A DNA stretch of 64,000 bases from Verrucomicrobiaceae bacterium (GCA_027487315.1 JAIYDW010000094.1:1-64000); one strand, 5' to 3'; positions 415 through 25,309 are shown, counted from the stretch's first letter. Notes: generated by a model from the letters alone, not told the origin. Translations and numbers: made by a program.

Positions 415-666
415 ATTTTTCACGGTGCAATTCCCTTGGACGCTGACCCAAAGGCTTTGATTCACCCCTGAAACGTCAGATCGACCCCCCTCTTTCAGCT
501 TCTTTTACTGCCCATTTTTACCGGGATATGCTCCCGGACTAACGCACTCCCCAAGGGAGTCGGTGGCACCCACGGGCCGCCCTCCCTGCGCCCAATGTGA
601 CGTATTTGTCACAGTCGGCCATTTGCCCGTCGTTGAGGCTTTGCCAAGCTCACATGGGCTTTACTC
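415..666. promoter_or_regulatory. Divergent intergenic region between the DUF1549 gene and the Ton operon
   Basis: This 252-bp stretch separates two divergent starts and must hold promoters for both. The only clear structure is the palindrome at 596-613. The ORFs listed here in the track have no family features and look like noise. Confidence 0.5.
596..613. promoter_or_regulatory. Perfect palindrome TGTGAC-N6-GTCACA (candidate operator)
   Basis: Six-base arms TGTGAC and GTCACA flank GTATTT, 54 bp before the DUF3450 start. The same motif recurs in three other divergent intergenic regions (see findings). The arms resemble CRP-family half sites, but the spacing between TGTGA and TCACA is 8 rather than the usual 6, so the regulator is unknown. 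Confidence 0.55.
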
Positions 667-1458
667 ATGGCTTTTTACACCTCCAATTTCCTCTTGCTGT
701 GGCTATCGTTCACAGCCACGTCGGCATTCTCCCAGCTCCCAGCTGGAGAGACCCAGGGCAATGCTGCCTCAATTCAATCCAGTCGCGACACTCTCGCTCA
801 GTGGATCGAAACGCAGCGCATCATTTCCAGTGAAGAATCTTCCTGGCAAACCACCAAACTCGCTCTCGAAGGCAGAGTCGCCCTCGTCCAGCAGGAATTG
901 GATGACCTCAACAATAAGGTCTCTCAATCCAACAAGACCATCGCCGAGGAAGAAACACGCAAATCCAACCTCCAACGCGAACTCGACGCCGCCAAATCAT
1001 CCACTCAGTCTCTAATCGAAGCTGCCGGCCTAATGGAGGCTGAAATCATGAAGCTCAAAACCATCCTGCCAGACCCCATCCTCAAGAAGGTCCAAGCTCT
1101 CTACGAACGTATCCCGGAAGATCCCAACAGCACCAAAGTCTCACTCGCCGAGCGCTACCAAAACATCCTCGGCATTCTCAACGAGGCTGACAAAGCCAAC
1201 AACGAACTCATGGTCCTCTCCGAAGTTCGGGAAATTGCCGGTGCTTCTCCCACCGAGGTCGAGACCATCTATGTCGGCCTCGCTCAGGCTTATTTTGTCA
1301 ACGCTGACCGAAACTTCGCAGGCACAGGTCGCCCCGTAAACGGCAAATGGCAGTGGGAACGACTCGACGAAATCAGCACCGATGTCGCCGAAATGCTCAG
1401 CGTTATCAGCGCGAAAGGAAAACCTAAGTTCGTGCACCTGCCCATTCAGATTGACTAA
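667..1458 (+). CDS. DUF3450-like periplasmic coiled-coil protein of a Ton system
   Basis: The product is 263 aa, starting at an ATG that puts a signal peptide first (MAFYTSNFLLLWLSF..., cleaved near AFSQ). Residues about 45-130 are charged and heptad-like, predicting a long coiled coil. The C-terminal half is globular and ends KFVHLPIQID. The length, the layout and the position directly before exbB/exbD/tonB match DUF3450, a periplasmic protein encoded with TtpC-type Ton systems such as those of Vibrio. It probably helps the ExbB-like motor engage the outer membrane. It lies 4 bp before the next gene, so the two are likely co-transcribed. The family call is by context and pattern; the molecular function is not established. 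Confidence 0.75.
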   Translation: MAFYTSNFLLLWLSFTATSAFSQLPAGETQGNAASIQSSRDTLAQWIETQRIISSEESSWQTTKLALEGRVALVQQELDDLNNKVSQSNKTIAEEETRKSNLQRELDAAKSSTQSLIEAAGLMEAEIMKLKTILPDPILKKVQALYERIPEDPNSTKVSLAERYQNILGILNEADKANNELMVLSEVREIAGASPTEVETIYVGLAQAYFVNADRNFAGTGRPVNGKWQWERLDEISTDVAEMLSVISAKGKPKFVHLPIQID

Positions 1459-1462
1459 TTCG

Positions 1463-3115
1463 ATGAACCGAAATCCTCTCCTTCAACTCAGCCTGTTCGC
1501 AGCCTCACTCGTCGCAGTGACGCTGTCAACGCACTCCCATGCGCAGGCACCCGCAGCAGTCACCCCGCCACCCGCTGCCCAGACCTCCAAACTCCAATCA
1601 GCCGTCCAGGCGTCCCAGGACCGCCTCGAAAAAGCCAAACAAGAGTTGGCTGCCCTGCGCTCCAAAATCGAAGCCGATACCCTCCCCCTCGCCAACAAGC
1701 TCCAAGAAGTGGAGCAGAAACTCGGCACCACCCGCAACGATGTCCAAGGCGTCGACCGCGTGCTCTCCGGCAAACAACTCGAAAACACCAACCTCCAGTC
1801 CTCTGTCAAACTCAAAACCGAAGAAAACGCCTACCTCGCCAGCATCATGGACGAATTCGTCCGGGGCTTCGAAACGCGTTTGTTCAGCGGCGAACTGCCC
1901 CGCTACAAACCCATTCTCGAAGAAGCCAAATTGGTCATGACCAACCAGGAAATGAGTTCCAACGACAAATTCGCCCGTCAAATCGCCGCAGTCAAAGCCG
2001 CACTCGCCCGCCTTCAAGACATCGTCGGTGGCTCACGCTTCCCCGGCAAGGCTGTCGACTCCAAAGGCAACCTCATCGACGGCACCTTCGTCCTAGTCGG
2101 ACCCGCCAGCTACTTCGCCGCGAAGTTTGGCGACGTTTTCGGCTTGGCCATCCCCCAGCTTTCCTCGCCAAATCCCATCGTCCGAGCCTTCCCTGACCCA
2201 GGCTCCATCGGCGAACCCCATGAAAAAGTCATGCACTGGTTCGAGTCCAAATTCGGTTCCCACCAAGAGGAATCCCGCGCCGGCCTCAAAGAGGTCGTCG
2301 CTGCCACCCCAGGTTGGCTTCCAATCGACCCTTCAAAAGGCGCTGCTCTCAGGGACATGGTCGAAAAATTCAACATCATCGAGACCTTTATCCATGGTGG
2401 CTGGATCATGTGGCCCATCCTCGCTTCCTCCATCGCTGCCTTCACCGTCGTCCTCGAACGCGTCTTCTTCATCTTCAACGAGTCGCGCAAACGCAGCAGC
2501 AAGAAACTCGAGAAATTCTTCGCTCTCTGTGAAGCCAACGACATGGACGGTGCCGTGGCCGTCAGCAAAACGACCAAAGATTTCGTCGTGCGCGCCCTTG
2601 GCTACGCCCTCGAACACCGCGATACCTCCCTCCACAGCGCTCTGATCTATTCCTCCCAAACCGCGACCAAACGCTTCAATCGCGGTCTCGTCGTCCTGGA
2701 TACCGTCATCACCCTGGCCCCCATGCTCGGCCTCCTCGGAACCGTCACCGGGATGATGGGTTCATTCCAATCCATCAGTGGTGACAATGGCAACCCCACC
2801 GCCGTCATGGGCGGGATTTCCGAAGCTTTGATCGCCACCGCCGCCGGTCTCGGCATCGCGCTGATCTGTCTCCTCCCCTACAACTACCTCAACGCCAAAA
2901 TCGAAGAGGCCCAGAAAGACCTCGAAACAGCCACTGCTCGTCTCGAATTGCTCGTCCAAGTGTCCGAACAGGTCCGAAGACTGAAGGAAGCCCCACCCCC
3001 ATCAGGCGGTTCCACACCCCCTTCCCCCAGCCACTCCCATTCCCCTTCGGCCTCCACTGTGCCCAACGCCTCTCCAGACAAAGATCCCCCTCTCGGCCAG
3101 CCTTTGCCAGCCTGA
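1463..3115 (+). CDS. exbB: ExbB/TolQ-family proton channel with long periplasmic N-terminus (TtpC-like)
   Basis: I start this at the ATG at 1463 (550 aa), not the track start at 1382, because 1463 opens a signal peptide (MNRNPLLQLSLFAASLVAV..., cleaved after SHAQA) and avoids overlap with the DUF3450 gene. Residues about 40-110 form a coiled coil, as in TtpC. The MotA/TolQ/ExbB domain holds three membrane spans: about 308-330 (GGWIMWPILASSIAAFTVVL), 408-435 (LAPMLGLLGTVTGMMGSF) and 449-475 (EALIATAAGLGIALICLLPY). The C-terminal 45 residues are Pro/Ser-rich and unusual. With ExbD and TonB it should convert proton motive force into work at outer-membrane receptors. Classic ExbB is about 240 aa, so this long form is the three-part DUF3450/TtpC type. 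Confidence 0.9.
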   Translation: MNRNPLLQLSLFAASLVAVTLSTHSHAQAPAAVTPPPAAQTSKLQSAVQASQDRLEKAKQELAALRSKIEADTLPLANKLQEVEQKLGTTRNDVQGVDRVLSGKQLENTNLQSSVKLKTEENAYLASIMDEFVRGFETRLFSGELPRYKPILEEAKLVMTNQEMSSNDKFARQIAAVKAALARLQDIVGGSRFPGKAVDSKGNLIDGTFVLVGPASYFAAKFGDVFGLAIPQLSSPNPIVRAFPDPGSIGEPHEKVMHWFESKFGSHQEESRAGLKEVVAATPGWLPIDPSKGAALRDMVEKFNIIETFIHGGWIMWPILASSIAAFTVVLERVFFIFNESRKRSSKKLEKFFALCEANDMDGAVAVSKTTKDFVVRALGYALEHRDTSLHSALIYSSQTATKRFNRGLVVLDTVITLAPMLGLLGTVTGMMGSFQSISGDNGNPTAVMGGISEALIATAAGLGIALICLLPYNYLNAKIEEAQKDLETATARLELLVQVSEQVRRLKEAPPPSGGSTPPSPSHSHSPSASTVPNASPDKDPPLGQPLPA

Positions 3116-3168
3116 GCCTCACGTCTCTAAACCCTTTCTTACCCAAACTCTAACTCACACTATCCACT

Positions 3169-3585
3169 ATGGCAGGCGGCGGCGGCGGCAGAACAGCAGG
3201 CGGCAGGAAAAAGGCCAACATCCAGATCGTTCCTCTGATCGATGTGGTCTTCTTCCTGTTGGCCACCTTCATCATGTACACTTTGTCCATGTCCAAAAAC
3301 ATGGGCGTCAACGTCCAACTCCCAGGTTCCAGCACCTCTTCCAAACAAGCCAGTACCGAGGATGCCCTGACCATTTCCGTCCTGAAAAAAGGCGAGCTCT
3401 TTTTCAACAAGGACAAAATCACTATCCAACAGCTCCCCTTCCGCCTCCAGTCCTTCAAGGCCCAACACAAAGAACCCAAAGTCATCGTCAATTCGGATGA
3501 AGACGCCGAAATGCGCAATGTCATCAATGTCATCGATGAAGTCAAAGCGGCTGGCATCATGAAAGTCGGGTTCGCTACCAAATAG
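3169..3585 (+). CDS. exbD: ExbD/TolR-family biopolymer transport protein
   Basis: The product is 138 aa: a Gly/Lys-rich cytoplasmic tail, one membrane span (about 18-41) and a periplasmic domain. The essential channel aspartate of the family is present in IVPLIDVVFFLL at residue 25, the same position as in E. coli ExbD. It lies 53 bp after exbB and 6 bp before tonB. It is expected to form the stator with the upstream ExbB-like channel. The opening MAGGGGGRTAGGRKK is low-complexity but precedes the span as expected for a cytoplasmic tail. Confidence 0.93.
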   Translation: MAGGGGGRTAGGRKKANIQIVPLIDVVFFLLATFIMYTLSMSKNMGVNVQLPGSSTSSKQASTEDALTISVLKKGELFFNKDKITIQQLPFRLQSFKAQHKEPKVIVNSDEDAEMRNVINVIDEVKAAGIMKVGFATK

Positions 3586-3591
3586 ACCCCT

Positions 3592-4275
3592 ATGTTAAAG
3601 GCTCTTTTCTGGTTCTTCATCGCTCTGCTCGTACACGCAGCCTTCCTGCTCTTCGGCAAGGCTCTGCTTCCCCATAGCGAAAAACACGAGGAATTGAAAG
3701 TCACCGAGGTCGACCTCAGCGAAAACGTCAAAGAAGAAGACAAAGTCGAAGAAAAAGAGAAAGTGGACGAGCAAGTCGAGGCGCCTCCCGAACAAATGGT
3801 CGATGCCAAAATGTTCGAAGAACCCGCCAGCGCACCCGAAGCGCCTGCCGCCCTCTCCGCCATGAGCCTTTCCGACCTCGCTGGTGCCATGAGTGGTGCC
3901 ATGAGTGATTTCGGCGGCGCAGGCGGCATTACCTCCGGCGGTGTCATCGGCGGCACCGGCACCGGCACCCTCGGCAGCGCCATGGGCGCAGGCGCCATGG
4001 ATAGCATGGATGTCGACGAACGCCCCCGCGCCATGGGAGCTCCCAATATCAAGCTGCCCAGGGAATTGAAGGGCGCCTCCGGCAAAGTCATCGTCCGTTT
4101 GGTCGTCGACGAAAAAGGCAAGATCCAAAAACCCCAAGTCGAAACCTCCACCAACTCTGCCCTCAACCAAGCCGTCTTGGATGGCATCCTCTCCATGCGC
4201 TTCGAACCCGCCACTCGTGGCGGCAAGAAGGTCTCCTGCAAAGTGCGCCTTCCTATCGTCATCGGTGCCGCCTAG
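3592..4275 (+). CDS. tonB: TonB-family energy transducer
   Basis: The product is 227 aa. Residues 5-25 form the membrane anchor (LFWFFIALLVHAAFLLFGK), including the His typical of the TonB anchor. An acidic and Lys-rich linker follows (about 35-85, KEEDKVEEKEKVDEQ), then a Gly/Met/Ala-rich segment (95-135). The C-terminal domain, about 145-227, has the TonB fold signature (SGKVIVRLVVDEKGKIQKP, then ILSMRFEPATRGGKKVSCKV). The Gly-rich spacer replaces the Pro-rich spacer of enteric TonB. The likely partners are the ExbB/ExbD pair just upstream and, by proximity, the receptor gene at 6064-9171. Confidence 0.9.
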   Translation: MLKALFWFFIALLVHAAFLLFGKALLPHSEKHEELKVTEVDLSENVKEEDKVEEKEKVDEQVEAPPEQMVDAKMFEEPASAPEAPAALSAMSLSDLAGAMSGAMSDFGGAGGITSGGVIGGTGTGTLGSAMGAGAMDSMDVDERPRAMGAPNIKLPRELKGASGKVIVRLVVDEKGKIQKPQVETSTNSALNQAVLDGILSMRFEPATRGGKKVSCKVRLPIVIGAA

Positions 4276-4296: not shown

Positions 4297-5712
4297 ATGC
4301 TACGCTCTACTCCCTTTCTGATCGCTCTCGTTGGCGCCTCCCTGACCTCCATGTCAGCCGCTGATCAGCGCGCTTTCTACCCCGCCAATTACTTCAAATC
4401 CAAAGAGTTTCGGGACGCTTTCCTCGGCACTCTCGGTGTCAAAACCGATGTCGAACCCAAAATCAGCGATGAGGAGCAAAACTACCTCTCCCAAATCGAA
4501 CCCTTCCTTTCGGAAGATGCCGACGCCTGCATCCGCGCCTACCAAAAGCTAGTCACACCGGAAAGCACCGCTCGCTTCGAATACGAACTCGGTGTGATCT
4601 ATCTCCAAAAAGGCCAAATCGAAGAAGCCCGCGACTGGATGCTCAAGGCTGTCACCAAATTCGACAACTTCCTCCGCGCCCACACCAACCTGGGCATGCT
4701 CTACACCCGCCTCAACAAAACCCAGGAGGCCATCCCCCACATCACCAAGGCACTCGCCCTCGGCCAAACCAACGAGCAACTCTTCGGCATGCTCGCCTAC
4801 TGCCACCTCCAAAATGGCGATGCCCTCAGCGCTGAGTCCGCTTACCGCAACGCCATCATGCTCGGGCCTAAAACGCTCGACTGGAAAACAGGCCTCGCCC
4901 AGGCTCTTTTCGCCCAGCAAAAGGCCACCGAGGCCATCGCCCTCCTCGATGAATTGCTCAAACAGCAACCCGAGAAAGAGCTCTTCTGGTCCATGCAGGC
5001 CCTCGCCTACCTCGCCAATCAGCAACCCATGAAGGCTGCCCAAAATCTCGAGACTCTCGCGATGATGGACGCCGCCACCGCCAAGGACTACTCCACCTTG
5101 GCAGACATCTACCTCTCCGAATCCATTTACCCTCTCGCAGGCCAGGCCTACATCAGTTCCCTGACCGCCAAAAACGCCCCAGCCACCGCCGAAGCACCTC
5201 TCCGCTCGGCCGAAATGCTCGCCCAGCGAGCCGCCTACCCCCAGGCCCAGCAACTCCTCGACGCCATCGAAAAACATTTCACCGAGATGCCCCAAGGGGA
5301 TCACCTCAAGGCCCTCAAAATCCGCAGCCGCATCGCCACCGCCCTGGAGGCGACTGACCAGGCCGTCACCATCCTCAAAGAGGTCATCAAAACCGATCCG
5401 CTCGATGGCGAAGCCCTCCTCCTCCTCGCCAACCACTACCAATCCGAAGGTTCCCCTGAGGACCTCGTCCAATCGGTCTTCTACCTCGAGCGCGCCATCA
5501 AAGTCCCCTCCGTCGAAGCCGAGGCCGGCGTCCGCCTCGCCCAAGCCCTCGTCGTCAAATCCTCCACCGACCTCGACAAAGCCAAGAAAATCGAATCCCT
5601 CCAACGCGCCGTCGACCTCCTCAAACGCTCCCAAGACCTCAAAAAGCGCGAAAGCGTCGGCAAATACCTAGCCGACCTCGAAAAAGCCCTCCAAAAAACC
5701 AAGGGACTCTAA
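4297..5712 (+). CDS. Periplasmic TPR protein of the Ton operon
   Basis: The product is 471 aa with a signal peptide (MLRSTPFLIALVGASLTSMSAAD). From about residue 85 to the end it is built of TPR-like helical pairs, for example YELGVIYLQKGQIEEARDWM, AHTNLGMLYTRLNKTQEAI and YLERAIKVPSVEAEAGVRLA. It is the last gene of the operon, 21 bp after tonB. TPR proteins often follow the DUF3450/TtpC/ExbD/TonB set and are thought to bridge to the outer membrane or the receptor; that role is inferred here. No enzymatic motif is visible. Confidence 0.85.
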   Translation: MLRSTPFLIALVGASLTSMSAADQRAFYPANYFKSKEFRDAFLGTLGVKTDVEPKISDEEQNYLSQIEPFLSEDADACIRAYQKLVTPESTARFEYELGVIYLQKGQIEEARDWMLKAVTKFDNFLRAHTNLGMLYTRLNKTQEAIPHITKALALGQTNEQLFGMLAYCHLQNGDALSAESAYRNAIMLGPKTLDWKTGLAQALFAQQKATEAIALLDELLKQQPEKELFWSMQALAYLANQQPMKAAQNLETLAMMDAATAKDYSTLADIYLSESIYPLAGQAYISSLTAKNAPATAEAPLRSAEMLAQRAAYPQAQQLLDAIEKHFTEMPQGDHLKALKIRSRIATALEATDQAVTILKEVIKTDPLDGEALLLLANHYQSEGSPEDLVQSVFYLERAIKVPSVEAEAGVRLAQALVVKSSTDLDKAKKIESLQRAVDLLKRSQDLKKRESVGKYLADLEKALQKTKGL

Positions 5713-9000: not shown

Positions 9001-9171
9001 CGCTCCAGACACCGGAACAAAGAAATCCGCGTCCTTCACCATTCCGCGAATCCCCCCCTGCTGCGCACAAACATCCGTCGCCATCCAGGCAAAGGCCAGC
9101 ACTGCCCATCGCAGGCACCAAATGGCTCCCCGTTTCAAACTTGTCTTTTCGCTGTCTCTCATTCCACTCAT
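6064..9171 (-). CDS. TonB-dependent receptor with N-terminal carboxypeptidase-regulatory-like domain (Oar-like)
   Basis: The product is 1035 aa with a signal peptide of about 37 residues (ending VCAQ). Residues about 38-112 form a CarboxypepD_reg-like beta domain (GIRGMVKDADFFVPVSGASV). A TonB-box-like stretch EVVELDEFVV follows at about 115, then the plug domain (about 140-265, with VVVRGLSDRYNVVLLNGARI and GEATGGSLNVVTKR), then a beta-barrel to an aromatic end (SITGKW). This layout matches Oar-type receptors. The start overlaps the preceding TPR gene by ATGA, implying translational coupling. The substrate is unknown: no riboswitch or metal-uptake gene is nearby, and the upstream genes encode surface proteins. 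Oar-like receptors can also serve protein export, so uptake should not be assumed. Confidence 0.92.
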   Translation of the reverse strand: MSGMRDSEKTSLKRGAIWCLRWAVLAFAWMATDVCAQQGGIRGMVKDADFFVPVSGASVALEPGGKALVTDSEGRFFANELEAGVYRIVASKEGYIRGAVSGVVVSAGAVQETEIQLTAEVVELDEFVVSTIEEEELTVGPVEIGAPVQSFAQAVAPSLLKASGSGGDIGSAAKRLTSTAVVDSRYVVVRGLSDRYNVVLLNGARIPSSDPDRRAVNIDIFPTGLVETLVSSKTFVPWMPGEATGGSLNVVTKRLPDEPFFNFSVSNAFNTRTTGSEKFLSYRGAGTGMLGTSRERSLPNELKQFDAADLPFDPSTFSYTDPSVNPQDDVNRVSSGNRLRAAELLFGRGTGVTTRKAPENFSVTALGGTRVPDFLGGELGIVGGITYAKRYTLEEGTRGRAQVSPVDLSIGSTYFEDYSRGQEGLLAGGLISASIEWDDDTIGLTYFTNLAAEDEAVFALGENDNLNTLNNGIPVQQEQRIIFREALGYTQRYLQTWQLAGEHRFPELGDIKTNWVAAFSTSYQDQPDLRKTFNAYDFDLGNVIAAGDPAPPDNERVWRRSDDKSYYLALDVELPIGGGPDDEDRTKIKFGAAFDRTDREYLSENFEYLLNSTGSLQAPVGVSPNDRENLTIADQIGSGDLSDQTSVFQPGVPPSPPFPALPDRFLRIDNIFLTRGRVLPVREEYTASQTIPAAHAAAVFNLSDDLEVVAGGRVEHTDIRFAVPGINLLDPSQGAGLLLLNDPITGEPYPPEQLANPSIVRTDLLPALGVKWTLADDMYLRTAITRTVARPNFKEIAPVFSREPSSGDIFIGNVLLNMSDVVNYDVRWEWNLGGGDLVAANLFAKTIANPIEQVNLGLFNTARNEVGASLFGFEVETFKNLGEIVPVLSDWTFGMNYGYVASKVDLIPFNEQLRREAGLSTDRPLQGQPEYTFNASVTYDNKDLGTSAGILLNVTGSLLYAGGGRVNAQTIPDIFQLPFTSVDAYLSKKVFENWEIGVRVSNLLDEPRRREFASGVPFAVTQAGTIYSVSITGKW

Positions 9172-10451
9172 TGCGCCACCCCGATAACCTCGCCCCGCAA
9201 TACCGCATTTAGCGCATCTTGCAATTCAGAACCCATCGGCCGCCCCAACCGCGCACGACACAGGCACACCTCCAAACACCCCCGATACTTCATCCGCGGA
9301 TTCGGATTCCCCGCCGCGATCCGCACCGCTTCCAAGAACAGTCTCTCCCCCTTGTCTTCCGCGCCCAGCATCATGAAGCAGGCACCCGTCCACGCCAACC
9401 CATCCGGCTGATCCATGGGCTGCTGTGACCTCGCAAGATCCTCCAGCTTTTCAAAATAACCCTCCAACGCCTTTTCTTTCCCTCGGATCTTCCAGATCTC
9501 AGCCATCTTGAAGTACCGCTCTCCCCCTCCTTCTAGATGAAAGCCCATCTGCCCAAACGCCTTTTCAAACGCTACCTTCGCTTCTGCCTCCCTCTTCTGC
9601 TCTGCGAAGTATTTGGCCAAGTCCAATAACACATCCGCATGGTACGCGTTCGACTTCTCCAACAAAACTCCTATTCCCTCGAAGATCGCCTTTTCCTCCT
9701 CTTCATTTCGTTTCCCCCCAACTCCACCTGTTACCACTTCGAGTAACTTTCCTGCAGCCTCCACCATTTCAGGCACTGGCACCTTCGGAGCTTCCGCAAA
9801 ACCATCAGACATGACCCGCTTCAATCCCTCCTTTGTAAACTCGGCACCCCGCCGAATGCGTTGCACATGCGCTAAAACCACCGCTGCCATACGATCTCCA
9901 ATCAATTCATAACCCGCCAACCAAGCCGCCATCTCACTGTCACTCATCCCAGCTAGCGCCCCCACACCCGCCAGCCGCACTCGTAATACGGTCCGCTGCC
10001 AATCCTTCCACTGTCCCAACTCTCTCCCAATTTTTTCCAATACCTCGCGCGCTTCCGGCGCATTCCCAAGGATCAGCTTCCTCTCCAGAACCATCAGCCT
10101 CCCAACCTCAGAACGATAATCCTTAATGGTGCCGGCCATTTCGTCGGCCGCACTGGTCTGCCCGTTCCCCAAAAGCACCTCCATATACCGCAACCTTAAC
10201 CGACTCTCCAAATCACGATCCCCACCAATCAATTCCAAAAAATATAACCCGCTTCCAACCGGGTCCTTGCCATCCACTACCCTTTCCTTCTCCCCTACCG
10301 CATTGCCTACTCGAATGCCATCCGCCACCTCTGCCGGCAATCCCTTCAAGTCCACTCCGCCCGCTATCTCCTGCCCCTCCACCTCCCAATCCACCGTTAG
10401 CATACAAAACAAGCCGACTGCGAGCCTCCTTGTGTTGAATCCAATACTCAT
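9168..10451 (-). CDS. Secreted TPR-like protein coupled to the TonB-dependent receptor
   Basis: The product is 427 aa with a signal peptide (MSIGFNTRRLAVGLFCML..., cleaved near VEGQ). The remainder is helical and degenerate TPR-like, for example LRLRYMEVLLGNGQTSAADEMAG, YHADVLLDLAKYFAEQKREAE and FEKAFGQMGFHLEGGGERYF. No catalytic motif is seen. Its stop codon overlaps the receptor start (ATGA), so the two proteins are probably made in a fixed ratio and may work together in the periplasm. An intrinsic terminator lies just upstream, so this gene and the receptor may depend on read-through or their own promoter. Confidence 0.75.
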   Translation of the reverse strand: MSIGFNTRRLAVGLFCMLTVDWEVEGQEIAGGVDLKGLPAEVADGIRVGNAVGEKERVVDGKDPVGSGLYFLELIGGDRDLESRLRLRYMEVLLGNGQTSAADEMAGTIKDYRSEVGRLMVLERKLILGNAPEAREVLEKIGRELGQWKDWQRTVLRVRLAGVGALAGMSDSEMAAWLAGYELIGDRMAAVVLAHVQRIRRGAEFTKEGLKRVMSDGFAEAPKVPVPEMVEAAGKLLEVVTGGVGGKRNEEEEKAIFEGIGVLLEKSNAYHADVLLDLAKYFAEQKREAEAKVAFEKAFGQMGFHLEGGGERYFKMAEIWKIRGKEKALEGYFEKLEDLARSQQPMDQPDGLAWTGACFMMLGAEDKGERLFLEAVRIAAGNPNPRMKYRGCLEVCLCRARLGRPMGSELQDALNAVLRGEVIGVAQ

Positions 10452-14626: not shown

Positions 14627-14685
14627 TACACGCCGTTGCTAAGCCCCAGGCTTCGTGAATCAATCGCCTCTCATTCTCTCTCCAC

Positions 14686-15749: not shown

Positions 15750-16834
15750 CCCCCCTCCTCCTCCTCCCAATTCTCAAAATCAAACACATCAAGCCCCATC
15801 TCTTCAGGAAGCGGCATCAACCCCTCAGGCAAGCCCAGACCCGGTAAACCATCGCCCTGCTTCGGGGCATCCTTCAATTCAGGATACTTCTCCATCAGGG
15901 CCATCACCCGCTCCCTCAATCCACTCCCTTCCGTGGCCAACTCCGGAAAACGCGACGCCAGTTCCCGGTAGTACACCGCCGCCGCCCGCTCATTCCCCCG
16001 CGCCTGATAGTATTCCGCCAGTTGCACCAAATCAGCCTTCTCACCATGGCGCACCTCATCCAAACATCGCCTCGCCTGAGCCGCCTTATCACTCTCTGGA
16101 TAGCGAGCCAAGAACCACTGCATCGCCATGGCCGCACGCTCACGATGCGTCGGCGCGCCACCCTTCATCTTCAGCCAATTCTTATACAAGATATACGCCA
16201 CCTGATACGCCGAGTCATCCGCCAACGCGTGCTTCGGAAACCGATCCAAAAAATCCTCATGCTGCATCGCCGCCTGAGGTGCCTTCCCTTCCTTCTCCAA
16301 TGCGACCGCCAGGTAATAATTCGCTTCCGCAGCAAACTCCACATACGGTCCATTCTCAACCACGATCCGCAACATCGATGAGACCTGCTCACGCTTCGGC
16401 ATGTCCTTGGGCGCCCTCCCATCGGGCATCCTGCCCAAAGCATCATAACGCGTCAGCACCTTAAGAGCGATCTCAAACTGCTTCCGCAGCGCCTTCTCAA
16501 AGTGCCCCGCAAAATGATCAATCAGGATCTGCAACGCATCAAAGGCAGCAATGTAGTCGCCAAACGCTTCATTCAGTCGCACGACCTCCCAGTGCGCCCT
16601 CGCCGCAACGCTCGTCCTCGGATACGCTTTCACCAACGCCGCATAGCGATCCAATGCCTCAGAAGGTCTCCCTGAAACAGCATCCTTCTGCGCCTTCTCA
16701 AACAGATTGGCCGCCCGGCGCTCCAGATCCTGCTCCTTGGTGATGATCGCCCCATCCGCACGCAAATGCCCTAAGACCAGCCACATCAAACACCACGGAA
16801 CGATCGTCCCTCTCCGAATGGCTGCGGGAGTCAT
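15728..16834 (-). CDS. BamD/YfiO-like TPR outer-membrane assembly protein
   Basis: The product is 368 aa with a signal peptide (MTPAAIRRGTIVPWCLMWLVLGH...). It contains TPR repeats with the BamD rhythm: GRPSEALDRYAALVKAYPRTSVAARAHW, YYLAVALEKEGKAPQAAMQHEDFLDRFPKH (read as two helices), then FLARYPESDKAAQARRCLDEV and YYRELASRFPELA. The C-terminal 45 residues are Gly/Pro/Glu-rich. BamD-family lipoproteins support barrel assembly in the outer membrane. No lipobox Cys is visible here, so it may be soluble in the periplasm. It lies 9 bp after a lipoprotein gene and closes a four-gene operon that also encodes two barrels. Confidence 0.7.
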   Translation of the reverse strand: MTPAAIRRGTIVPWCLMWLVLGHLRADGAIITKEQDLERRAANLFEKAQKDAVSGRPSEALDRYAALVKAYPRTSVAARAHWEVVRLNEAFGDYIAAFDALQILIDHFAGHFEKALRKQFEIALKVLTRYDALGRMPDGRAPKDMPKREQVSSMLRIVVENGPYVEFAAEANYYLAVALEKEGKAPQAAMQHEDFLDRFPKHALADDSAYQVAYILYKNWLKMKGGAPTHRERAAMAMQWFLARYPESDKAAQARRCLDEVRHGEKADLVQLAEYYQARGNERAAAVYYRELASRFPELATEGSGLRERVMALMEKYPELKDAPKQGDGLPGLGLPEGLMPLPEEMGLDVFDFENWEEEEGGALNVER

Positions 16835-16843
16835 GGAACAAGG

Positions 16844-17347
16844 TCAGGTACCAGGCACTGCCGGATTAGGACTCGCCGGCATCGGTAGCAATCCTCCGTC
16901 CATCGGCATGCTCCCAAGCCCCTCCGTCCCACTGAATTGCCCCGGCGCATAAATCGTGCTCAACTCTTCCTTGGGCCGTTTGCCGTAGGTCACCTTTCCG
17001 AGCGTGACAAAAATGGTCATATTGTTGGCCGGATTCTCCACCTTCACTTCAGCCCCTGGATACAAGTTCTCAACCAAACCCGAATTCGGACCCTCAGCAT
17101 CAACGTGGGGAACCCCCTCCTCATCGGCAATCGTGTAATCGAAACTCAGTATCTCACGACCCACATTCCGGAACTTCGCCGAATACTCGATCGTCTCCTC
17201 GTCAACAACTTCGTTAACGACATACAAGGCAATCGGGTGATTCTTAAACACCACCTTCCGGGTCCGATAAGTCTGGCAGGAAACCAAACAACTCGCCCCA
17301 ACAACAAGGACTACCGACAACGACAACAAACGACTCGTAAGCTTCAT
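16844..17347 (-). CDS. Lipoprotein of unknown function, YcfL-like layout
   Basis: I start at the ATG at 17347 (167 aa), which begins a lipoprotein signal MKLTSRLLSLSVVLVVGASC with lipobox LVSC shortly after. The mature part has a beta-sandwich-like segment (IEYSAKFRNVGREILSFDYT, then GAEVKVENPANNMTIFVTLG). This is loosely like YcfL/DUF1425 lipoproteins, in which a residue string describing added disorder precedes an NxT-rich strand. That resemblance is weak. The tail is Met/Pro/Gly-rich (GSMPMDGGLLPMPASPNP). It sits between the barrel genes and the BamD-like gene, so envelope assembly or cell-wall synthesis is plausible. Confidence 0.65.
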   Translation of the reverse strand: MKLTSRLLSLSVVLVVGASCLVSCQTYRTRKVVFKNHPIALYVVNEVVDEETIEYSAKFRNVGREILSFDYTIADEEGVPHVDAEGPNSGLVENLYPGAEVKVENPANNMTIFVTLGKVTYGKRPKEELSTIYAPGQFSGTEGLGSMPMDGGLLPMPASPNPAVPGT

Positions 17348-17382
17348 AGGATGAACTAGAAAAAGATAGAGGCTGACGGCAA

Positions 17383-18084
17383 TCAATACTGGAAACGCGC
17401 GCCGAGCACCAAGGCCGAAAACTCAGCACCACCAATGCCTCCATTGCCAAAATCATACAGGTCAAGGTAACGATACTCGCCGTAGACCGAGAAGTTCTCC
17501 GCTAATTCCACCTCAACACCGGCCAGCAACTGATAGGCAAAACTCGCCTCTCCCCCATCATCCAGGGACCTCTCACGCCGTCCTCGCTCCTGATAGGCTA
17601 CGTTATTCTGATATCCGTACCCAAATCCAACACCTGCTCCAATGTAGGGTTTGATCGCCCCAATCCAACCCGCATCCGGACCCAGCATCGACTCAAGATC
17701 AAACTGAATAATGCCATTCGTCATGGCTCCGAAAGCCCCCAAATCAGACCGATACTTGGTTCCACGACGCGAGCCTGAAACTTCCTGATTGAGGTAATAG
17801 AACTCAAGTTCAGCCGCCAAGTTGATCCCAACGGGGGTCACCCACTTGTATCCAAACTCAACCCCAGCAATCCAACCCAACTTGCTTCCATCTACAGGGA
17901 CATCTTTGATTCGACCTGTCGTCACAGTATCCCCAACATTCACTCCACCCACGAAAGTGCCAACATAGGATCCATGCAGTCGGCTGGCCTTGGCGGTGCT
18001 GACCGTGTCAAAATAGATCTCCGCTGCATCGGAGGAAGTGTATCCAACTAGCAGGAAGGCGGCGGCGAGTAACTTCAATTTCAT
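17383..18084 (-). CDS. Outer-membrane beta-barrel protein (small porin-like fold)
   Basis: The product is 233 aa with a signal peptide (MKLKLLAAAFLLVGYTSSDAAE). Alternating hydrophobic strands follow: IAGVEFGYKWVTPVGINLAA, IKPYIGAGVGFGYGYQNN, FSVYGEYRYLDLYDFG. It ends in the aromatic outer-membrane signature LVLGARFQY. The size and the YIGAGVG / YGEYRY pattern match 8-stranded OmpA/OmpW-like barrels. It is paralogous to the next upstream gene (18119-18913), 34 bp away. Function is unknown; such small barrels are usually structural or adhesive. Confidence 0.8.
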   Translation of the reverse strand: MKLKLLAAAFLLVGYTSSDAAEIYFDTVSTAKASRLHGSYVGTFVGGVNVGDTVTTGRIKDVPVDGSKLGWIAGVEFGYKWVTPVGINLAAELEFYYLNQEVSGSRRGTKYRSDLGAFGAMTNGIIQFDLESMLGPDAGWIGAIKPYIGAGVGFGYGYQNNVAYQERGRRERSLDDGGEASFAYQLLAGVEVELAENFSVYGEYRYLDLYDFGNGGIGGAEFSALVLGARFQY

Positions 18085-18118
18085 AAAGGAGAGGGTCTAG
18101 TGTGAACGGACTGAAAGG

Positions 18119-18913
18119 TTAATAGCGGTAACGGAATCCAATGGCGTATCCCTTGGTCTGCATATCAACAACGTCTTCCAGCTCGCCAAAATTGAATTCT
18201 CGATACTCGGCAAAGACACCGTATTTGTCGTTCCAAGTGTATTCGATGCCGCCAAACCACTGCCAGGAGCTGATGAATTCATCCATCGCAAAAGGAGTTT
18301 CAAGCGACAGCGTTCCAGGATTTGCTCCCGTAAACTGATCTTTTGACTGATACAGCTGATTCCGAAACCATACCTGCCCCCCACCTACACCCGCACCAAG
18401 ATACGGCTTCAAACCCGCAACAAACTTTCCGAGCCTCGCCCGATACCGCCACAGGTCTAAGCTAATAGACCCATTCACCATGAAAAAGACCGCGTTCATA
18501 TCCGTCTCGTAAGTGGCAAGTCCATTCCCTGCCAATGCGGCCAAAGTCGCCTCATCAGCCTGCCCCTTGATATCAGTGGAAAGGAAACTCCCCTCGAACT
18601 CCAACGAGAACTGCAACGGCGCTTTCTTGGATCGCCAACTTTTCCCTACCTCAATCCCAAAAACGCCAGCACCGTCACGGCCCTGCATCGGATAACTGAG
18701 TCCACCAATCGACACATCACCTGTCTGAGTGCTATTAGCCCCCCCAAACGCGCCCACATAGGGCCCATACTTCCGCTTCGTAGCGGGGTCTTCCTGCACA
18801 GACTTGAGCGACTTCAACTCGATCTCCCCCGCGTTCCCTTTCGGACACACAAGGATTCCGGCCACAATGGAGGCAAGTAGAATTCGGGGAAACATAGGCG
18901 GGAGACAGTTCAT
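18119..18913 (-). CDS. Outer-membrane beta-barrel protein, paralogue of the neighbour
   Basis: I choose the ATG at 18913 (264 aa); the ATG at 18895 is equally possible and neither has a Shine-Dalgarno. The track start at 19003 would put coding sequence over the candidate operator and delay the signal peptide. The signal MFPRILLASIVAGILVCPKGNAG is followed by GVFGIEVGKSWRSKKAPLQF, LKPYLGAGVGGGQVW and KYGVFAEYREFNFG, ending GYAIGFRYRY. The LKPYLGAGVG and FAEYRE strands correspond to those of the 17383-18084 product, so the pair arose by duplication. It is the first gene of the operon. Confidence 0.8.
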   Translation of the reverse strand: MNCLPPMFPRILLASIVAGILVCPKGNAGEIELKSLKSVQEDPATKRKYGPYVGAFGGANSTQTGDVSIGGLSYPMQGRDGAGVFGIEVGKSWRSKKAPLQFSLEFEGSFLSTDIKGQADEATLAALAGNGLATYETDMNAVFFMVNGSISLDLWRYRARLGKFVAGLKPYLGAGVGGGQVWFRNQLYQSKDQFTGANPGTLSLETPFAMDEFISSWQWFGGIEYTWNDKYGVFAEYREFNFGELEDVVDMQTKGYAIGFRYRY

Positions 18914-18986
18914 TTTAGCCGCTGAACGGCTTGATTGAATAGGCGGTTCTGTTAACTTCGCAAGTCCCGGTTCGAAAAGAGTTCGC

Positions 18987-19004
18987 TGTGAACATTTTGT
19001 CACA
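18987..19004. promoter_or_regulatory. Near-perfect copy of the TGTGAC-N6-GTCACA motif
   Basis: The sequence reads TGTGAA-CATTTT-GTCACA. It lies almost midway between two divergent genes: 73 bp from the barrel gene start at 18913 and 79 bp from the pseudoprotease gene start at 19084. Confidence 0.5.
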
Positions 19005-19083
19005 AATCATCACGTGTTTGCCTCCCTGGACTCGCTGACGTCTCGGTTGCCACCCTTCCTCCATCCAATAGAATCTCCAACCG

Positions 19084-20832
19084 GTGCCACGTCCCAGCTC
19101 CATTCTTACCCCCCCATTTGCCCCGTCCTTCTTGGGGATTCTCCAATTCCTCGTCGTTTCGGCGACCCTCTGCCCAACCAACTTACCACTGCCAGCTTTC
19201 GCACAAACACCCGCTCCACCAGTCCAGCTACCCCTCCCTGACGCTCCAGGCCTTCCTCCAGGCCTCGATAACTCGCCCAACCCCCTTCTCGACTTCAAAA
19301 GCCGCGATGCCGCCAAGCGGGCCCAAAAAAGCGACTCCGATGACGCCAACCTCCAACCCCTTTCCCCCTTCATGCCAGGCGAACAACCGCCACCGCTTCC
19401 CCAAGAACCTCCCACCGCTCCACTCACCCCCACTCAGAAGGAACTCATGGCGCTCGCTCAAAAAGTCGCCGGCTCCGTCATCAGCCTCCGCGTTTGGGAT
19501 GAATTCGGTGGCCTTCTTACCTCCGGCGTCGGTTGTTTCGTCTCCAATGACGGCCTCATCCTAACCGACGCCAATCTGCTTCACCCCGAAATTGCGGATC
19601 GTATCGACTACATCACCACCACTGCTGCAAACGGAACCAACCACCGCGTCACCGGATTCTACCTCGCCGACCTCACTTCTGGAGTCGCCCTCCTTCAAAG
19701 CGATGGTCCCCCAGCCGCCGCGCTCGAACTCAAAACAGAGGTCGACTTCAGCAAGCCTCTTCCATGCCGGGTAGTCGCCTTGTCAGACAAACGTGGCCTC
19801 CTCATCGCCGACGCCGAAGTCTCACTCGATGACACTCTCGCGGGCCAGGGCTGGCTCACCCTTCGTGGAGACGACTCCCCCGGCGGTGTTGGCTCTCCAG
19901 TCCTTTCATCAAATGGCTCTGTCATCGGCATCGTCGCCATGAAGACGCCCCTCGATAGTTGGATGAATTTTGCTCTACCCGCCAGCCAAGCCGCTTTCGA
20001 AACCCAACGCAAACGCCCCAAACTCAAACTCTTATCCGAACTTCCTCAATCCCCTAAGGTCAATGATGTCGTCAACGACCCTGACTTCACCACCGCCTTC
20101 ACTTTGCTGGCTGAAAACAACCCCACTCGCGCCGCGCGCATCCTCCTCAAACTCACCAAACGCTACCCCCGCAGTGCCGAGTGCTGGGCACTTCTCGGCC
20201 TCGCCTCATCCTCCCTCGGAGCCAATCCAGACGCTCTCTCCTGCCAACGCCGCTCCGTCGCCCTCGACCCCGCTTCGGGCCTCTATTGGCACCAAATGGC
20301 CCAGGGCCAAAACCGCGCCAAAAGCGCCGACAAGGGCGCCATCACCCTCGATCAGGAGGAATATCAAGCCCTCGTTCAAGCCACTTACCTCGACCCCACC
20401 GACCGCGTCAGTTGGCTCCTCCTCGGCACCCAACACCTCAAAGCCGGTCGACTCCAGGAAGCCGATGAAGCCCTCGAACGCCTGACGTTCCTTGCCCCCT
20501 CCTACTCTCAAGGCTTTTACCTGTCAGCCGTCGCCAAGTCCCGACTCGCTGATTACCCCGCAGCCCTCTCCGCCCTGGATCGTTGCCTGCAAATCAACAG
20601 CCGCCTCGACAATGCCTGGTTCTTCCTCGGTCTCATCCACGACAAAACCGGCGACTATTCCAAGGCTGCCCTCGCCTTTCAAAAGGCGGTTCGCGTCAAC
20701 CCAGACCACCCCAATGCCTGGCTTAACCTCGCCCATGCCCTCCGCAAAGCCAAACGCCCAACCGAAGCCAGCCAAGCCTTCCGCGAACATCAAAAACGCA
20801 CCGACCAACGCCGCCGCAAACAACAACCGTAA
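19084..20832 (+). CDS. Trypsin-fold pseudoprotease fused to TPR repeats
   Basis: The product is 582 aa from a GTG start with a long signal region (cleaved near FAQ, about 41), then a Pro-rich linker. Residues about 120-305 align with the DegP/HtrA-type trypsin fold: GCFVSNDGLILTDANLL, LTSGVALLQ, SPGGVGSPVLSSNGSVIGI. Each catalytic position is altered: the His of the TNAHVV-type motif is Asn164, the Asp of the TDLAVL-type motif is Gly200, and the Ser of GNSGGP is Val269. Residues about 340-575 are TPRs (DNAWFFLGLIHDKTGDYSKA, NAWLNLAHALRKAKRPTEAS). It is probably a periplasmic binding or scaffold protein, not a protease. It diverges from the barrel/BamD operon. The fold call is firm by pattern; the role is inference. 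Confidence 0.8.
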   Translation: MPRPSSILTPPFAPSFLGILQFLVVSATLCPTNLPLPAFAQTPAPPVQLPLPDAPGLPPGLDNSPNPLLDFKSRDAAKRAQKSDSDDANLQPLSPFMPGEQPPPLPQEPPTAPLTPTQKELMALAQKVAGSVISLRVWDEFGGLLTSGVGCFVSNDGLILTDANLLHPEIADRIDYITTTAANGTNHRVTGFYLADLTSGVALLQSDGPPAAALELKTEVDFSKPLPCRVVALSDKRGLLIADAEVSLDDTLAGQGWLTLRGDDSPGGVGSPVLSSNGSVIGIVAMKTPLDSWMNFALPASQAAFETQRKRPKLKLLSELPQSPKVNDVVNDPDFTTAFTLLAENNPTRAARILLKLTKRYPRSAECWALLGLASSSLGANPDALSCQRRSVALDPASGLYWHQMAQGQNRAKSADKGAITLDQEEYQALVQATYLDPTDRVSWLLLGTQHLKAGRLQEADEALERLTFLAPSYSQGFYLSAVAKSRLADYPAALSALDRCLQINSRLDNAWFFLGLIHDKTGDYSKAALAFQKAVRVNPDHPNAWLNLAHALRKAKRPTEASQAFREHQKRTDQRRRKQQP

Positions 20833-20840
20833 CCCACCCC

Positions 20841-21381: not shown

Positions 21382-24300
21382 TTAAGGCACCACTGGCACT
21401 GGCTGAACCACCACTTTCCCACCCTCCTGCGGGCTATTCGAAGTCGTCTGCCCCACCACAGTAGGCAGTTGGTTCAAGATGAAATATCCCTCGCCCTTGT
21501 TCTTCACGATCAAGCCTTGATAAGTCACCGCCCGTGTGACGGTCGCGGTCGGCACCAGGGGATTCGGTTCAACAAGGGTGAACTTCCCACTGAAGGCTCC
21601 CGTACTGCTGACAAACGATAGGGTCACCTTGCGGGTGTTCGGGATGCCGGGATTGAAGGTCACTTTGTTGCTGGTCGACACGTTCGCCTTCACCACCGGC
21701 ATCGCTGGCAGCGCCGTCACAACCCCAGCTTCCGTCAGCAGCACCTCGATTTCATTGGCCGCATCACTCAACCCCAAGACCCGGGGATTCGCTGTTGGAT
21801 TCGCCGTCGTGGGCTTGGCGGGAGCCACGTACCGCGCCCCGTTCACGCTCGCTGAAAGCACGGCTGGGAAACCACTCCGGTAGAGGCGATTGCTCGTCGC
21901 CGAGTTCGCCGGCCTCGACCATGTCAGACCCACTGCGGACACCGTGTTATCTGCTGGCGTGAGCCCAGTCGTGATATCCAACGTCCCCAAAATGGATCCC
22001 ATCACGGGTAGCTTCGTCCCATACAGGGTTCGGAACAAAAGCATTTGCCCGGTCGGTCCCGCAAAGCTCGACGTCGAAATCGACGACCCGTCTGATAGCC
22101 TACCCGCAATCGTCAACCGACCCGTGGTGGCACTCACATTGAACGAAAGGAATCCCGTGCCCTTCGGCGCTTCGGCACTCGTCAAGGCCGTGTTGTCAAG
22201 CGTCACGTGGTTGGTGTACAAGCCCGCAATCGCATCCGCGCGATTCGAGCTGGACCATGGATTTCTCCACGCATCGAAAGTCGCCGTTGCGACCCCATCC
22301 GAGACCGTTCCCGTTCCGTTCTCCACCGTCCCAGTCAGCCCTTCAATCGTGAAGGCCACTAGCAAGTCGGAGAATCCCTTCCTTTTGATCGGGTTCGCCA
22401 CCACCCGCAATTGGGTCAGTTCTGTCGGATCGACAACGCCAACCCCGGTGAAAGAATACACCTTGGTCCCTAAAGTCACCTTACCGCTGGTGACTCCCCC
22501 AGTCGAGGACACAGTGAAATCCACCCGTCCACCCAGCGCCCCGCTTCCAGGCGACGCATCAACCAGGATCCCGGGAGTACGCGCAATCGGTCCCGCAAAA
22601 ACTCCAGCCGTACCGGTCGGCAATCCTGTGATCAAAAGACGCGTCGTCAACACGGCCGACCCAAACGAATTCTTCGCGGTCACCTTCACCGCATACGGTG
22701 TCGACTTAAACACCGTCGGTGTCCCCTCAACAACCCCCGTGGTAGGGTTCACTCTAACTCCGGTTGGCAAGCCCGTTGCCGAAAAACTGGTCGCCGAACG
22801 GAAGATATTGTTCGCCGGCTCATCTGGCGCCAACGCCGGCTTGAACGAATACACCCTCCGCACCTGGCCCGCTGTCAAATCGCCGGTATGCGCCCAAACA
22901 GGCTTCTGATTCGGTGGCCCTGCTTGCACACTGGTCGTCACGGCCGTGGTCGAACTGTTGTTGCTGTCGGACAACTCCACAACGGTGTTGTCTGGATCCG
23001 CCACCGCCCCTCCGATCGGCAGGACATAACTCCCCGCCGTTGAAGTCTTCACCGTCACCGTGAGCGGAACCGAACTGCTGGCCGCAACACTCCCACCCGA
23101 AAAGGTCACCACCCCAGCCGCTTGACCAACAGTGAAGCCGCTTCCCGACGCTCCAACATAAGTCAGCCCACTGGGCAACGTCACTCGAACACCCACTCCG
23201 CTTGCCGGAAGCAGTCCCGTGTTCTGAACCGTCACGCTGTAATTGAACTCAGCCTCAAGAAACGCCGACGTTGGACCCGTCACGGACGTCACCAAATCCG
23301 GGTTCGATACTGTCACCACCGCCGTGGCACTGTCGGTAGGCCCCGCTAAGTTGGTCGCTCTCACCCAAAAGCTTGTGCTCGTTGCAAGGTTGGGCGTTGT
23401 GAACGTGGCATTCGTCTCGCCTGCCAACGGGGTGCTCGTATCGCCAGACGCACCCTGATACCATTGCAGCGTCGGAGTCGGCGTCCCAGTGACCGCCACA
23501 CTCAGTGAGGTGCTTGTCCCCACGGCAATCGTCGTCGAATCCGGCTGATCCGTGAAACTCGGAAGCACCGGTGGCACCACCGTAAAGTTAAACACGTAAT
23601 TGCTCGCCATGTTGGCGGGCACAATGTCAGTCACCCCGCTGGCGAGCACGGTCACCACATACTCAGCCCCATATTGCAAGGGAGCGGAAGGCGTTAGAAG
23701 AACGGTCGTCGAATTGGTGACCGGCAGACCCGTAAAAGCCACCGGATTCCCCCCCGTCGTGATCGTGATCGCATTGCTCGTAAGCGAGACTTCCTTGCTG
23801 AACGTGATGCCAATCAAAGCGTTGATCGCAACCCCAGTAGCATCGTCGGCCGGCGAAGACGCAGCCACAAAAGGAAGATTCGTCGCCGTCAAAGTGATCG
23901 TCTCAGTGTCATCGAACCCGCCCACATTCGATACCCGTGCCCAGTAACTCGCAGTCGTGTTCACGGCCCCCAAAACCAAATTCGTCCCAGTCTCTCCCGA
24001 CAAGGGATTCGCCGTGTCGCCCGTGTTACCCGTATACCATTGCACCGTAGGCGTCGGCGTCCCCGAAGCAGTCACCGTCAAAGTCACAGGGCTCCCCGTC
24101 GTCACGTTCTGCGAGGGCGATTCCGAGGTAATCACAGGTGGAATCGCCGCTTCTGTCGTGAACGAAAAGGTGAAATTCTCAGCCATGTTATTGCTGCTCC
24201 CATCCGTCACGCCCGTTGCCAATACAGTGACCGTATGCAGCGTCCCATAGGCCAACGGTGCGGTCGGCGTCAGCACAACCGAACTCACGTTCGTAGCCGG

Positions 24301-25029
24301 CAATCCCGAAACCGCCACAGGGTTCCCACCCGCACTCACCGTGATCGCACCACCGGTGAGATTCACTGGTCCACTGAAATTTACAGTAACATTTGATGAC
24401 ACCAAAACCGCAGACGCTGAATTGGACGGTGTGGTTGAGATCACTGTCGGTGTCGCAATAGTCGACGCCAAGCGGTGTGGCACTGTGACGGGGTCCGCTG
24501 ATGCTGTCCCAACCAACGCGTTCATTCCATTTGCGGAATCCAACCCAAACCCAAAAAAACTGTCTTGGATCAGGTCTTGATTATCGGCCCACGTGAATCC
24601 GAAGGTTGCGGCTTCAAAAACACCATGCTGAGTCGCCAGGCTTAAATTACTGTTGTCCAAAACCCATGCATAAATCGCCCCACCCGCGATATCGCCTGGG
24701 ACGTTTTCATTGTTCGTTGAAAGATCGTAAGGCAGCGTCGAAGTTCCGTTTCCTGCGGTCCTCGTCCCAGTAGTCGAATAGTTCAGTGTCGAAGCGAAGG
24801 AACTTCCGGAGAGTGTGAAAGTGCCGATCTCGAAAAACAGATCGTCAAGTTCATCCACGGACAGGGAAAAATTCGTCCCAGGTGGGAAGTAGCCGAAACG
24901 GACGATACCACTAGTCAGGGGAGAGCCATCTGACCTGGCCATGTTGTTATCGCTGTCAAAGTTGAGGACAGCCGCATTGGATACCGATGCTAGAGCAAAT
25001 ATGAAGACTGCGAAGAGGGATCTAAACAT
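21382..25029 (-). CDS. Large secreted multi-domain Ig-like protein with PEP-CTERM-related N-terminal module
   Basis: The product is 1215 aa with a signal peptide (MFRSLFAVFIFALASVSNAAV). Residues about 20-190 are homologous to the ectodomain of the PEP-CTERM protein at 12556. Then come Big_5/SbsA-type Ig domains (about 195-295 and 385-485; VVLTPTAPLAYGTLHTVTV, VLLTPSAPLQYGAEYVVTV), alternating with Ig-like domains carrying PTVQWYTG or PTLQWYQG. A CARDB/DUF11-like domain (about 580-690, NTGLLPASGVGVRVTLPSGL) and a putative-Ig domain (LPTGVRVNPTTGVVEGTP) follow. The last 350 residues hold two FSGKF-type beta modules, a C-terminal layout also seen in the 46865-49270 product. It has no C-terminal anchor. 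Probable role: surface or matrix adhesion. Confidence 0.85.
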   Translation of the reverse strand: MFRSLFAVFIFALASVSNAAVLNFDSDNNMARSDGSPLTSGIVRFGYFPPGTNFSLSVDELDDLFFEIGTFTLSGSSFASTLNYSTTGTRTAGNGTSTLPYDLSTNNENVPGDIAGGAIYAWVLDNSNLSLATQHGVFEAATFGFTWADNQDLIQDSFFGFGLDSANGMNALVGTASADPVTVPHRLASTIATPTVISTTPSNSASAVLVSSNVTVNFSGPVNLTGGAITVSAGGNPVAVSGLPATNVSSVVLTPTAPLAYGTLHTVTVLATGVTDGSSNNMAENFTFSFTTEAAIPPVITSESPSQNVTTGSPVTLTVTASGTPTPTVQWYTGNTGDTANPLSGETGTNLVLGAVNTTASYWARVSNVGGFDDTETITLTATNLPFVAASSPADDATGVAINALIGITFSKEVSLTSNAITITTGGNPVAFTGLPVTNSTTVLLTPSAPLQYGAEYVVTVLASGVTDIVPANMASNYVFNFTVVPPVLPSFTDQPDSTTIAVGTSTSLSVAVTGTPTPTLQWYQGASGDTSTPLAGETNATFTTPNLATSTSFWVRATNLAGPTDSATAVVTVSNPDLVTSVTGPTSAFLEAEFNYSVTVQNTGLLPASGVGVRVTLPSGLTYVGASGSGFTVGQAAGVVTFSGGSVAASSSVPLTVTVKTSTAGSYVLPIGGAVADPDNTVVELSDSNNSSTTAVTTSVQAGPPNQKPVWAHTGDLTAGQVRRVYSFKPALAPDEPANNIFRSATSFSATGLPTGVRVNPTTGVVEGTPTVFKSTPYAVKVTAKNSFGSAVLTTRLLITGLPTGTAGVFAGPIARTPGILVDASPGSGALGGRVDFTVSSTGGVTSGKVTLGTKVYSFTGVGVVDPTELTQLRVVANPIKRKGFSDLLVAFTIEGLTGTVENGTGTVSDGVATATFDAWRNPWSSSNRADAIAGLYTNHVTLDNTALTSAEAPKGTGFLSFNVSATTGRLTIAGRLSDGSSISTSSFAGPTGQMLLFRTLYGTKLPVMGSILGTLDITTGLTPADNTVSAVGLTWSRPANSATSNRLYRSGFPAVLSASVNGARYVAPAKPTTANPTANPRVLGLSDAANEIEVLLTEAGVVTALPAMPVVKANVSTSNKVTFNPGIPNTRKVTLSFVSSTGAFSGKFTLVEPNPLVPTATVTRAVTYQGLIVKNKGEGYFILNQLPTVVGQTTSNSPQEGGKVVVQPVPVVP

Positions 25030-25108
25030 GATTTTCTAGGTTGTTGAGTTCTGACGTGTTCTGAGATTCGCGGACCTGGGGATTGTTCGAACTTTTTCTG
25101 GCTGGCAA

Positions 25109-25126
25109 TGTTAGGATTTCGTCACA
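25109..25126. promoter_or_regulatory. Imperfect copy of the TGTGAC-N6-GTCACA motif
   Basis: The sequence reads TGTTAG-GATTTC-GTCACA, 79 bp upstream of the start of the 1215-aa protein gene. Confidence 0.4.
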
Positions 25127-25291
25127 TTTACTTTTCCGGTGCCTCCTCCATCCATGCCGATCAGCATGAATTGGGAAGGTTTCAGGCTGACTACGACACC
25201 GGAACGAATGAAAATGACGGTCATTTTCGCCGTCTTGGCGACACAGGGGGTCGTTAATCGCACCCGATCGCAGCCCGCACAAAATCATCAA

Positions 25292-25309
25292 TGTGACCTT
25301 TTTGTCACA
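25292..25309. promoter_or_regulatory. Perfect palindrome TGTGAC-N6-GTCACA (candidate operator)
   Basis: Both six-base arms are exact and flank CTTTTT. It is 131 bp before the small membrane-protein gene and 262 bp from the 1215-aa protein gene. Confidence 0.55.

Follow-up and report, generated by a model that had tools for sequence, protein, structure and literature searches.

A conserved operator, very probably a variant Pho box, marks a TonB and surface-protein gene island in a Verrucomicrobiaceae bacterium

Introduction

The closest described counterpart of the operator considered here is the PHO box of Escherichia coli PhoB, with its 11-nt repeats and CTGTCAT core (PMC4415409). Our motif resembles it in its two 11-bp units, in the AAA tract after the first GTSAC, and in its occurrence at pst, phoB, phoU, porin, and phoX genes; it differs in carrying GTGAC in place of GTCAC in the first unit and in its predicted control of a TonB/surface gene island. 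A literature search yielded almost no information on Pho boxes in Verrucomicrobia.

Several described systems resemble the genes behind the operator. In Caulobacter crescentus, ElpS (cc0170) is followed by a TonB receptor (cc0171) and gsp genes; ElpS is made on phosphate starvation and is linked to extracellular phosphatase activity (PMC2996285). Our locus likewise places a putative ElpS-type protein, so assigned from homologues and their gene order, beside a TonB receptor, and has a DUF3450-ExbB-ExbD-TonB-TPR operon with PEP-CTERM-like and TIGR02597-like partners in place of the Caulobacter type II secretion genes. Flavobacterium lipoproteins reported to be related to a low-Pi-inducible Caulobacter lipoprotein, which by our reading of the reference is ElpS, are encoded next to a TonB transporter and respond to the depletion of Pi with induction (PMC8115612). 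These PUSIII and PUSIV clusters, of which PUSIV contains phoBR, share with our locus the combination of an ElpS-related exoprotein with a TonB transporter; they belong to Bacteroidetes, whereas our locus has a putative Pho box and holds the Ton energiser inside the cluster. The energiser itself matches in gene content the TonB2 and TonB3 systems of Vibrio vulnificus with TtpB (TtpB2 being a DUF3450 protein) and TtpD (TPR), although TonB2 serves iron transport and our operon sits under the candidate Pho box (PMC6957404). Finally, plcP and btaAB lipid-remodelling loci with putative Pho boxes (PMC4796936) are paralleled elsewhere in the same genome by boxes at a phoBR/glycosyltransferase-plcP-phoU locus and at a btaA-like gene; a difference is that in one relative btaAB lies inside the Ton/surface island.

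The window, the whole 64,000-nt stretch analyzed here, comes from a Verrucomicrobiaceae bacterium (GCA_027487315.1, JAIYDW010000094.1:1-64000) whose genome is a draft of 256 contigs. All steps of the analysis were computational.

Results

An initial annotation of the window had described six sites of the form TGTGAC-N6-GTCACA as marking divergent promoters of a possible surface/Ton regulon and had compared their arms with CRP-family sites. Every one of the six strings was found where it had been placed; two of them, at 596 and 25292, match the palindrome throughout, and one further site in the window has one mismatch and another has two. The sites were scored with a 22-bp matrix trained by expectation maximization (EM) solely on pstS upstream regions (40 loci outside the genus). 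The EM start was the motif consensus, so the matrix tests the window sites and is not an unbiased motif discovery. The scored boxes, with their counterparts in two congeners (G001 and G003) and a more distant relative (G012), are as follows.

594-615, plus strand: Pho box scoring 25.5 bits, ahead of the DUF3450-ExbB-ExbD-TonB-TPR operon; unchanged in G001 and G003; G012 has one of 15.6 bits in the same place, before DUF3450
14425-14446, plus strand: candidate Pho box, doubtful at 10.9 bits; unchanged in G003 and with a single difference in G001
14607-14628, plus strand: Pho box scoring 16.7 bits, in the spacer that separates the TIGR02597-like gene (minus strand) from the 173-aa gene (plus strand); 25.0 bits in the same spacer of G012
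18985-19006, plus strand: Pho box scoring 14.2 bits, in the spacer that separates the barrel/BamD-like operon (minus strand) from the protease/TPR gene (plus strand); 19.4 bits in the same spacer of G012
25107-25128, plus strand: Pho box scoring 20.2 bits, ahead of the gene for the 1215-aa surface protein; unchanged in G001 and with a single difference in G003
25290-25311, plus strand: Pho box scoring 26.1 bits, the second ahead of the gene for the 1215-aa surface protein; unchanged in both G001 and G003

On its A-tract strand, the reverse complement, the matrix reads nnnGTGACnAAAnCGTCACAnn and consists of two conserved 11-bp-spaced units joined by an A/T-rich linker, NNGTGACRAAA and NYGTCACATN. 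The full E. coli Pho-box consensus, CTGTCATAAAACTGTCATATTC, scored 15.4 bits against the matrix in register, and the next register reached 2.8. An exact direct repeat, with GTCA in both units, was not the form of the EM training sites, in which the first unit is mostly GTGAC (about 84%, with GTCAC in about 10%). The PHO-box consensus varies between species (PMC4415409), and the GTGAC first unit therefore marks a variant without excluding membership. Because of the C-to-G change in the first 11-bp repeat relative to E. coli, the head-to-tail repeat looks inverted; judged by its sequence, the palindrome is a direct repeat altered at a single base. The remark in the initial annotation that the centre always contains TTT holds and reflects an asymmetric A/T tract.

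The genes associated with the element were examined in a perfect-match scan of 57 related genomes followed by inspection of the flanking genes. Perfect sites in the relatives lie upstream of pstS (followed by pstC), a phosphate-selective porin (Porin_O_P, PF07396), phoU (TIGR02135, above cutoff), and DUF47/PiT genes; not all are at phosphate genes, and some fall inside unrelated or coding sequence. The core phosphate genes (pst, phoU, porin, and phoX) are boxed in the relatives, and pstS of a congener (G002) is preceded by a box of 21.2 bits; in the window's own genome phoB is boxed and pst only weakly. There, on contig C164, phoB-phoR is divergent from an operon encoding a glycosyltransferase, a PlcP-like metallophosphoesterase, and PhoU, and the spacer that separates phoB from that operon holds two boxes (19.2 and 19.7 bits), an arrangement that has the appearance of a lipid-remodelling locus. 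A 20.8-bit box precedes a btaA-like DUF3419 gene on contig C47. The remaining matches in the genome (the C230 subtilase, C226, C227, C78, and C229) are without a clear phosphate role among the 150 of 2564 candidates that were scored in a genome-wide scan with a sequence-only Infernal model, the regulon list being incomplete to that extent; the C230 match (C230:21460) is a 22.8-bit box located where a subtilase (S8) gene begins. The 11-bp register, the asymmetric A/T tract, and the genes behind the boxes together argue for a site of the OmpR-family regulator PhoB. We conclude that the motif is very probably the Pho box of this verrucomicrobial lineage and that the island very likely belongs to its phosphate-starvation regulon.

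Another OmpR-family regulator with PhoB-like specificity might instead control the surface and Ton genes alone, apart from the phosphate response. OmpR-family regulators recognize similar direct repeats. The best NCBIfam family of the C164 regulator is PhoB (TIGR02154), at 233 bits and so below the curated equivalog cutoff of 296.2, and those of the C164 kinase are PnpS and PhoR, both likewise below cutoff. The own porin-pstSCAB operon has only weak box candidates (12.3 and 11.4 bits). Against this, the same matrix matches the own-genome phoB and btaA, and in G012 phoX, pst/porin, and the Ton island are all boxed, with a PhoB-like gene adjoining the island; we regard a separate regulator as very unlikely. 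The recognition-helix region of the C164 regulator is TRTLDTHVKRLR, which we take to resemble that of E. coli PhoB.

The comparison with CRP made in the initial annotation fared worse. On that reading, a CRP/FNR-family regulator would act on a TGTGA-N8-TCACA palindrome, with the phosphate genes as a by-product of carbon/energy control; the arms are indeed identical to the CRP half-site, the form is palindromic, and CRP-PhoB cross-talk is known at some promoters (PMC4415409). A symmetric CRP/FNR site is TGTGA-N6-TCACA, yet here the spacing is 8 instead of 6, the centre is asymmetric with TTT on one side, the E. coli Pho box fits in the predicted 11-bp repeat register, and the perfect sites cluster at pst, pho, porin, and PiT genes. 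We therefore rejected the CRP/FNR site, a reading even less probable than the preceding one.

The frequency of the Pho box candidates was compared with chance. A pattern search allowing up to three mismatches gave 24 matches in the 64-kb window versus 20.8 expected, which makes a mismatch count no guide to the weak sites. With at most one mismatch, only nine places were found in the 5.87-Mb genome (four for the reversed control pattern), and three of the nine lie within this 64 kb, which is 1.1% of the genome (binomial P about 1e-4). The five top-scoring places of the matrix in the window are five of the six reported sites, and in 300 permutations of the matrix columns the counts never came up to the real ones. 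A first-order Markov model predicts 0.01 chance matches in 64 kb at scores of 18 bits or above, 0.08 at 16, 0.32 at 14, and about 1.4 at 11. Five of the six sites are therefore real and above chance; the sixth, at 14427, is doubtful because its 10.9 bits is a chance-level score, about 1.4 such scores being expected per 64 kb. Two corrections concern the flanking genes: the ORF starts that overlap the sites at 14427 and 18987 are mechanical GTG starts whose true counterparts probably lie downstream, and the right-hand gene at 25292 is uncertain.

The boxes are better conserved than the surrounding spacers. In G001, 109 of 110 box positions are identical versus 670 of 816 in the spacer (P=5e-8), and in G003 the corresponding values are 131 of 132 and 918 of 992 (P=0.001). 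G012 has the same island, with most orthologs 24-59% identical and ExbB and ExbD higher, and boxes at three of the window's four spacers; neither the 1215-aa gene nor its pair of boxes had an identified counterpart there. Further boxes in G012 lie ahead of the receptor (18.6 and 16.9 bits) and of a PhoX phosphatase (PF05787; 21.3 bits), and the island contig also carries btaA (PF11899) next to a methyltransferase gene (btaAB), as well as a PhoB-like regulator, whose gene adjoins one for a choice_anch_I (PF22494) protein (L098:5029-7407). A search of the genus for a homologue of the G012 PhoX, run without a positive control, gave no match, and the window genes that were scanned include no phosphatase. 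Boxes also precede the gene orthologous to the window DUF3450 gene in further relatives. Among the DUF3450 upstream regions of 78 GTDB loci, which were not in the matrix training set, 12 reach 14 bits versus 0.48 expected from control stretches; nearly all of these are from Verrucomicrobia. Planctomycete DUF3450 operons are mostly without a box, and the link between box and DUF3450 is therefore lineage-specific. That the sites are chance matches in AT-richer spacers, as the window count at up to three mismatches and the score at 14427 would allow, is refuted for the five sites that exceed chance by matrix and are conserved, three of four spacers being boxed in a distant relative. The suggestion of the initial annotation that a shared operator may define a surface/Ton regulon is upheld; the operator is non-random and is conserved in relatives.

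The genes of the island begin with the Ton energiser operon and the receptor.

667-1458, plus strand: DUF3450 protein (TtpB-like; PF11932), first gene of the Ton operon
1463-3115, plus strand: ExbB/MotA-type proton channel (PF01618) with an N-terminal extension; start inferred from the reading frame
3169-3585, plus strand: ExbD-like protein, from the annotation of the syntenic Pseudoalteromonas gene; orthologs in G012, G010, G024, and G033
3592-4275, plus strand: TonB-like energy transducer, by synteny
4297-5712, plus strand: TPR protein (TtpD-like), by synteny; compare TtpD2 (PMC6957404)
6064-9171, minus strand: TonB-dependent receptor with a CarboxypepD_reg domain (PF00593, PF13620); TIGR01782 best but below cutoff
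9168-10451, minus strand: 427-aa protein with weak TPR similarity; G012 counterpart directly before the receptor
10551-12509, minus strand: ElpS-like secreted protein, 652 aa
12556-13215, minus strand: PEP-CTERM-like protein, 219 aa
13319-14305, minus strand: TIGR02597-like protein (24.3 bits, cutoff 50); G012 ortholog 30% identical
14686-15207, plus strand: 173-aa putative lipoprotein; G012 ortholog 39% identical
15728-18900, minus strand: operon of two outer-membrane barrel proteins, a 180-aa putative lipoprotein, and a BamD/YfiO-like protein (PF13505, PF13525); order kept in G012
19084-20832, plus strand: trypsin-like/TPR protein (PF13365, TPR families), called a pseudoprotease in the initial annotation; G012 ortholog 49% identical
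21382-25029, minus strand: 1215-aa surface protein with matches to Ig-like (Big_5) and DUF11 domains

DUF3450, ExbB, ExbD, TonB, and TPR genes occur in one operon, the composition of a Ttp-type TonB system, with ExbD, TonB, and TPR assigned by gene order and homology. The 219-aa protein gave only weak matches to PEP-CTERM models, both below cutoff (PF07589, 14.5 bits versus 20.7; NF038129, 28.4 versus 65); it is related to the N-terminus of the 1215-aa protein, and relatives match both. At the border to the EPS half, positions 26661-27998 encode a glycine-rich protein of 445 aa that is weakly similar to F5/8 type C.

The 652-aa protein matched a Sphingomonas homologue with an hhalign probability of 99.8 and a Pseudoalteromonas homologue by BLASTP at 5e-21. 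A PDB sequence search with its alignment gave no match, and structure prediction gave no usable model (pLDDT 29). The Sphingomonas and Indioceanicola homologues lie ahead of a TonB receptor and then type II secretion (gsp) genes. The Pseudoalteromonas order, DUF3450-ExbB-ExbB-ExbD-TonB-(hypothetical)-homologue-receptor, is the module of the window. In Pseudoalteromonas, Pho-box-like repeats were seen ahead of both the ElpS-like and the DUF3450 genes (L213:8182 and L213:2856); boxes of the E. coli type close to the homologues in Pseudoalteromonas and Sphingomonas are suggestive only.

Discussion

The finding is best explained by a variant of the Pho box and a predicted phosphate-starvation regulon whose surface and Ton members are unusual. 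Under low phosphate, the PhoR-type kinase would phosphorylate the PhoB-type regulator, both encoded on contig C164, and the regulator, by inferred binding to the two 11-bp units, would activate the adjacent promoters. The predicted response in the window would switch on the TtpB/ExbB/ExbD/TonB/TtpD-type energiser, the TonB-dependent receptor, and the ElpS-like protein, along with the PEP-CTERM-like and TIGR02597-like proteins, the barrel/BamD-like operon, and the 1215-aa Ig-domain surface protein. The products of the island probably act together to capture and import phosphorus-containing molecules, some of which may be processed at the surface. A more specific proposal is that Verrucomicrobia possess a PUL-like surface system under PhoB control, equipped with a Ton energiser of its own and with ElpS-type, PEP-CTERM-like, TIGR02597-like, and Ig-domain proteins, and dedicated to the capture of polymeric or organic phosphorus; we consider the chances for and against it to be evenly balanced.

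If correct, this proposal would provide a function for DUF3450-TonB operons and TIGR02597-like proteins in Verrucomicrobia. A usable Pho-box matrix is now available for this phylum, surface and Ton genes of unassigned role become a testable phosphate-scavenging system, and ElpS-like proteins are linked to a dedicated Ton energiser across phyla.
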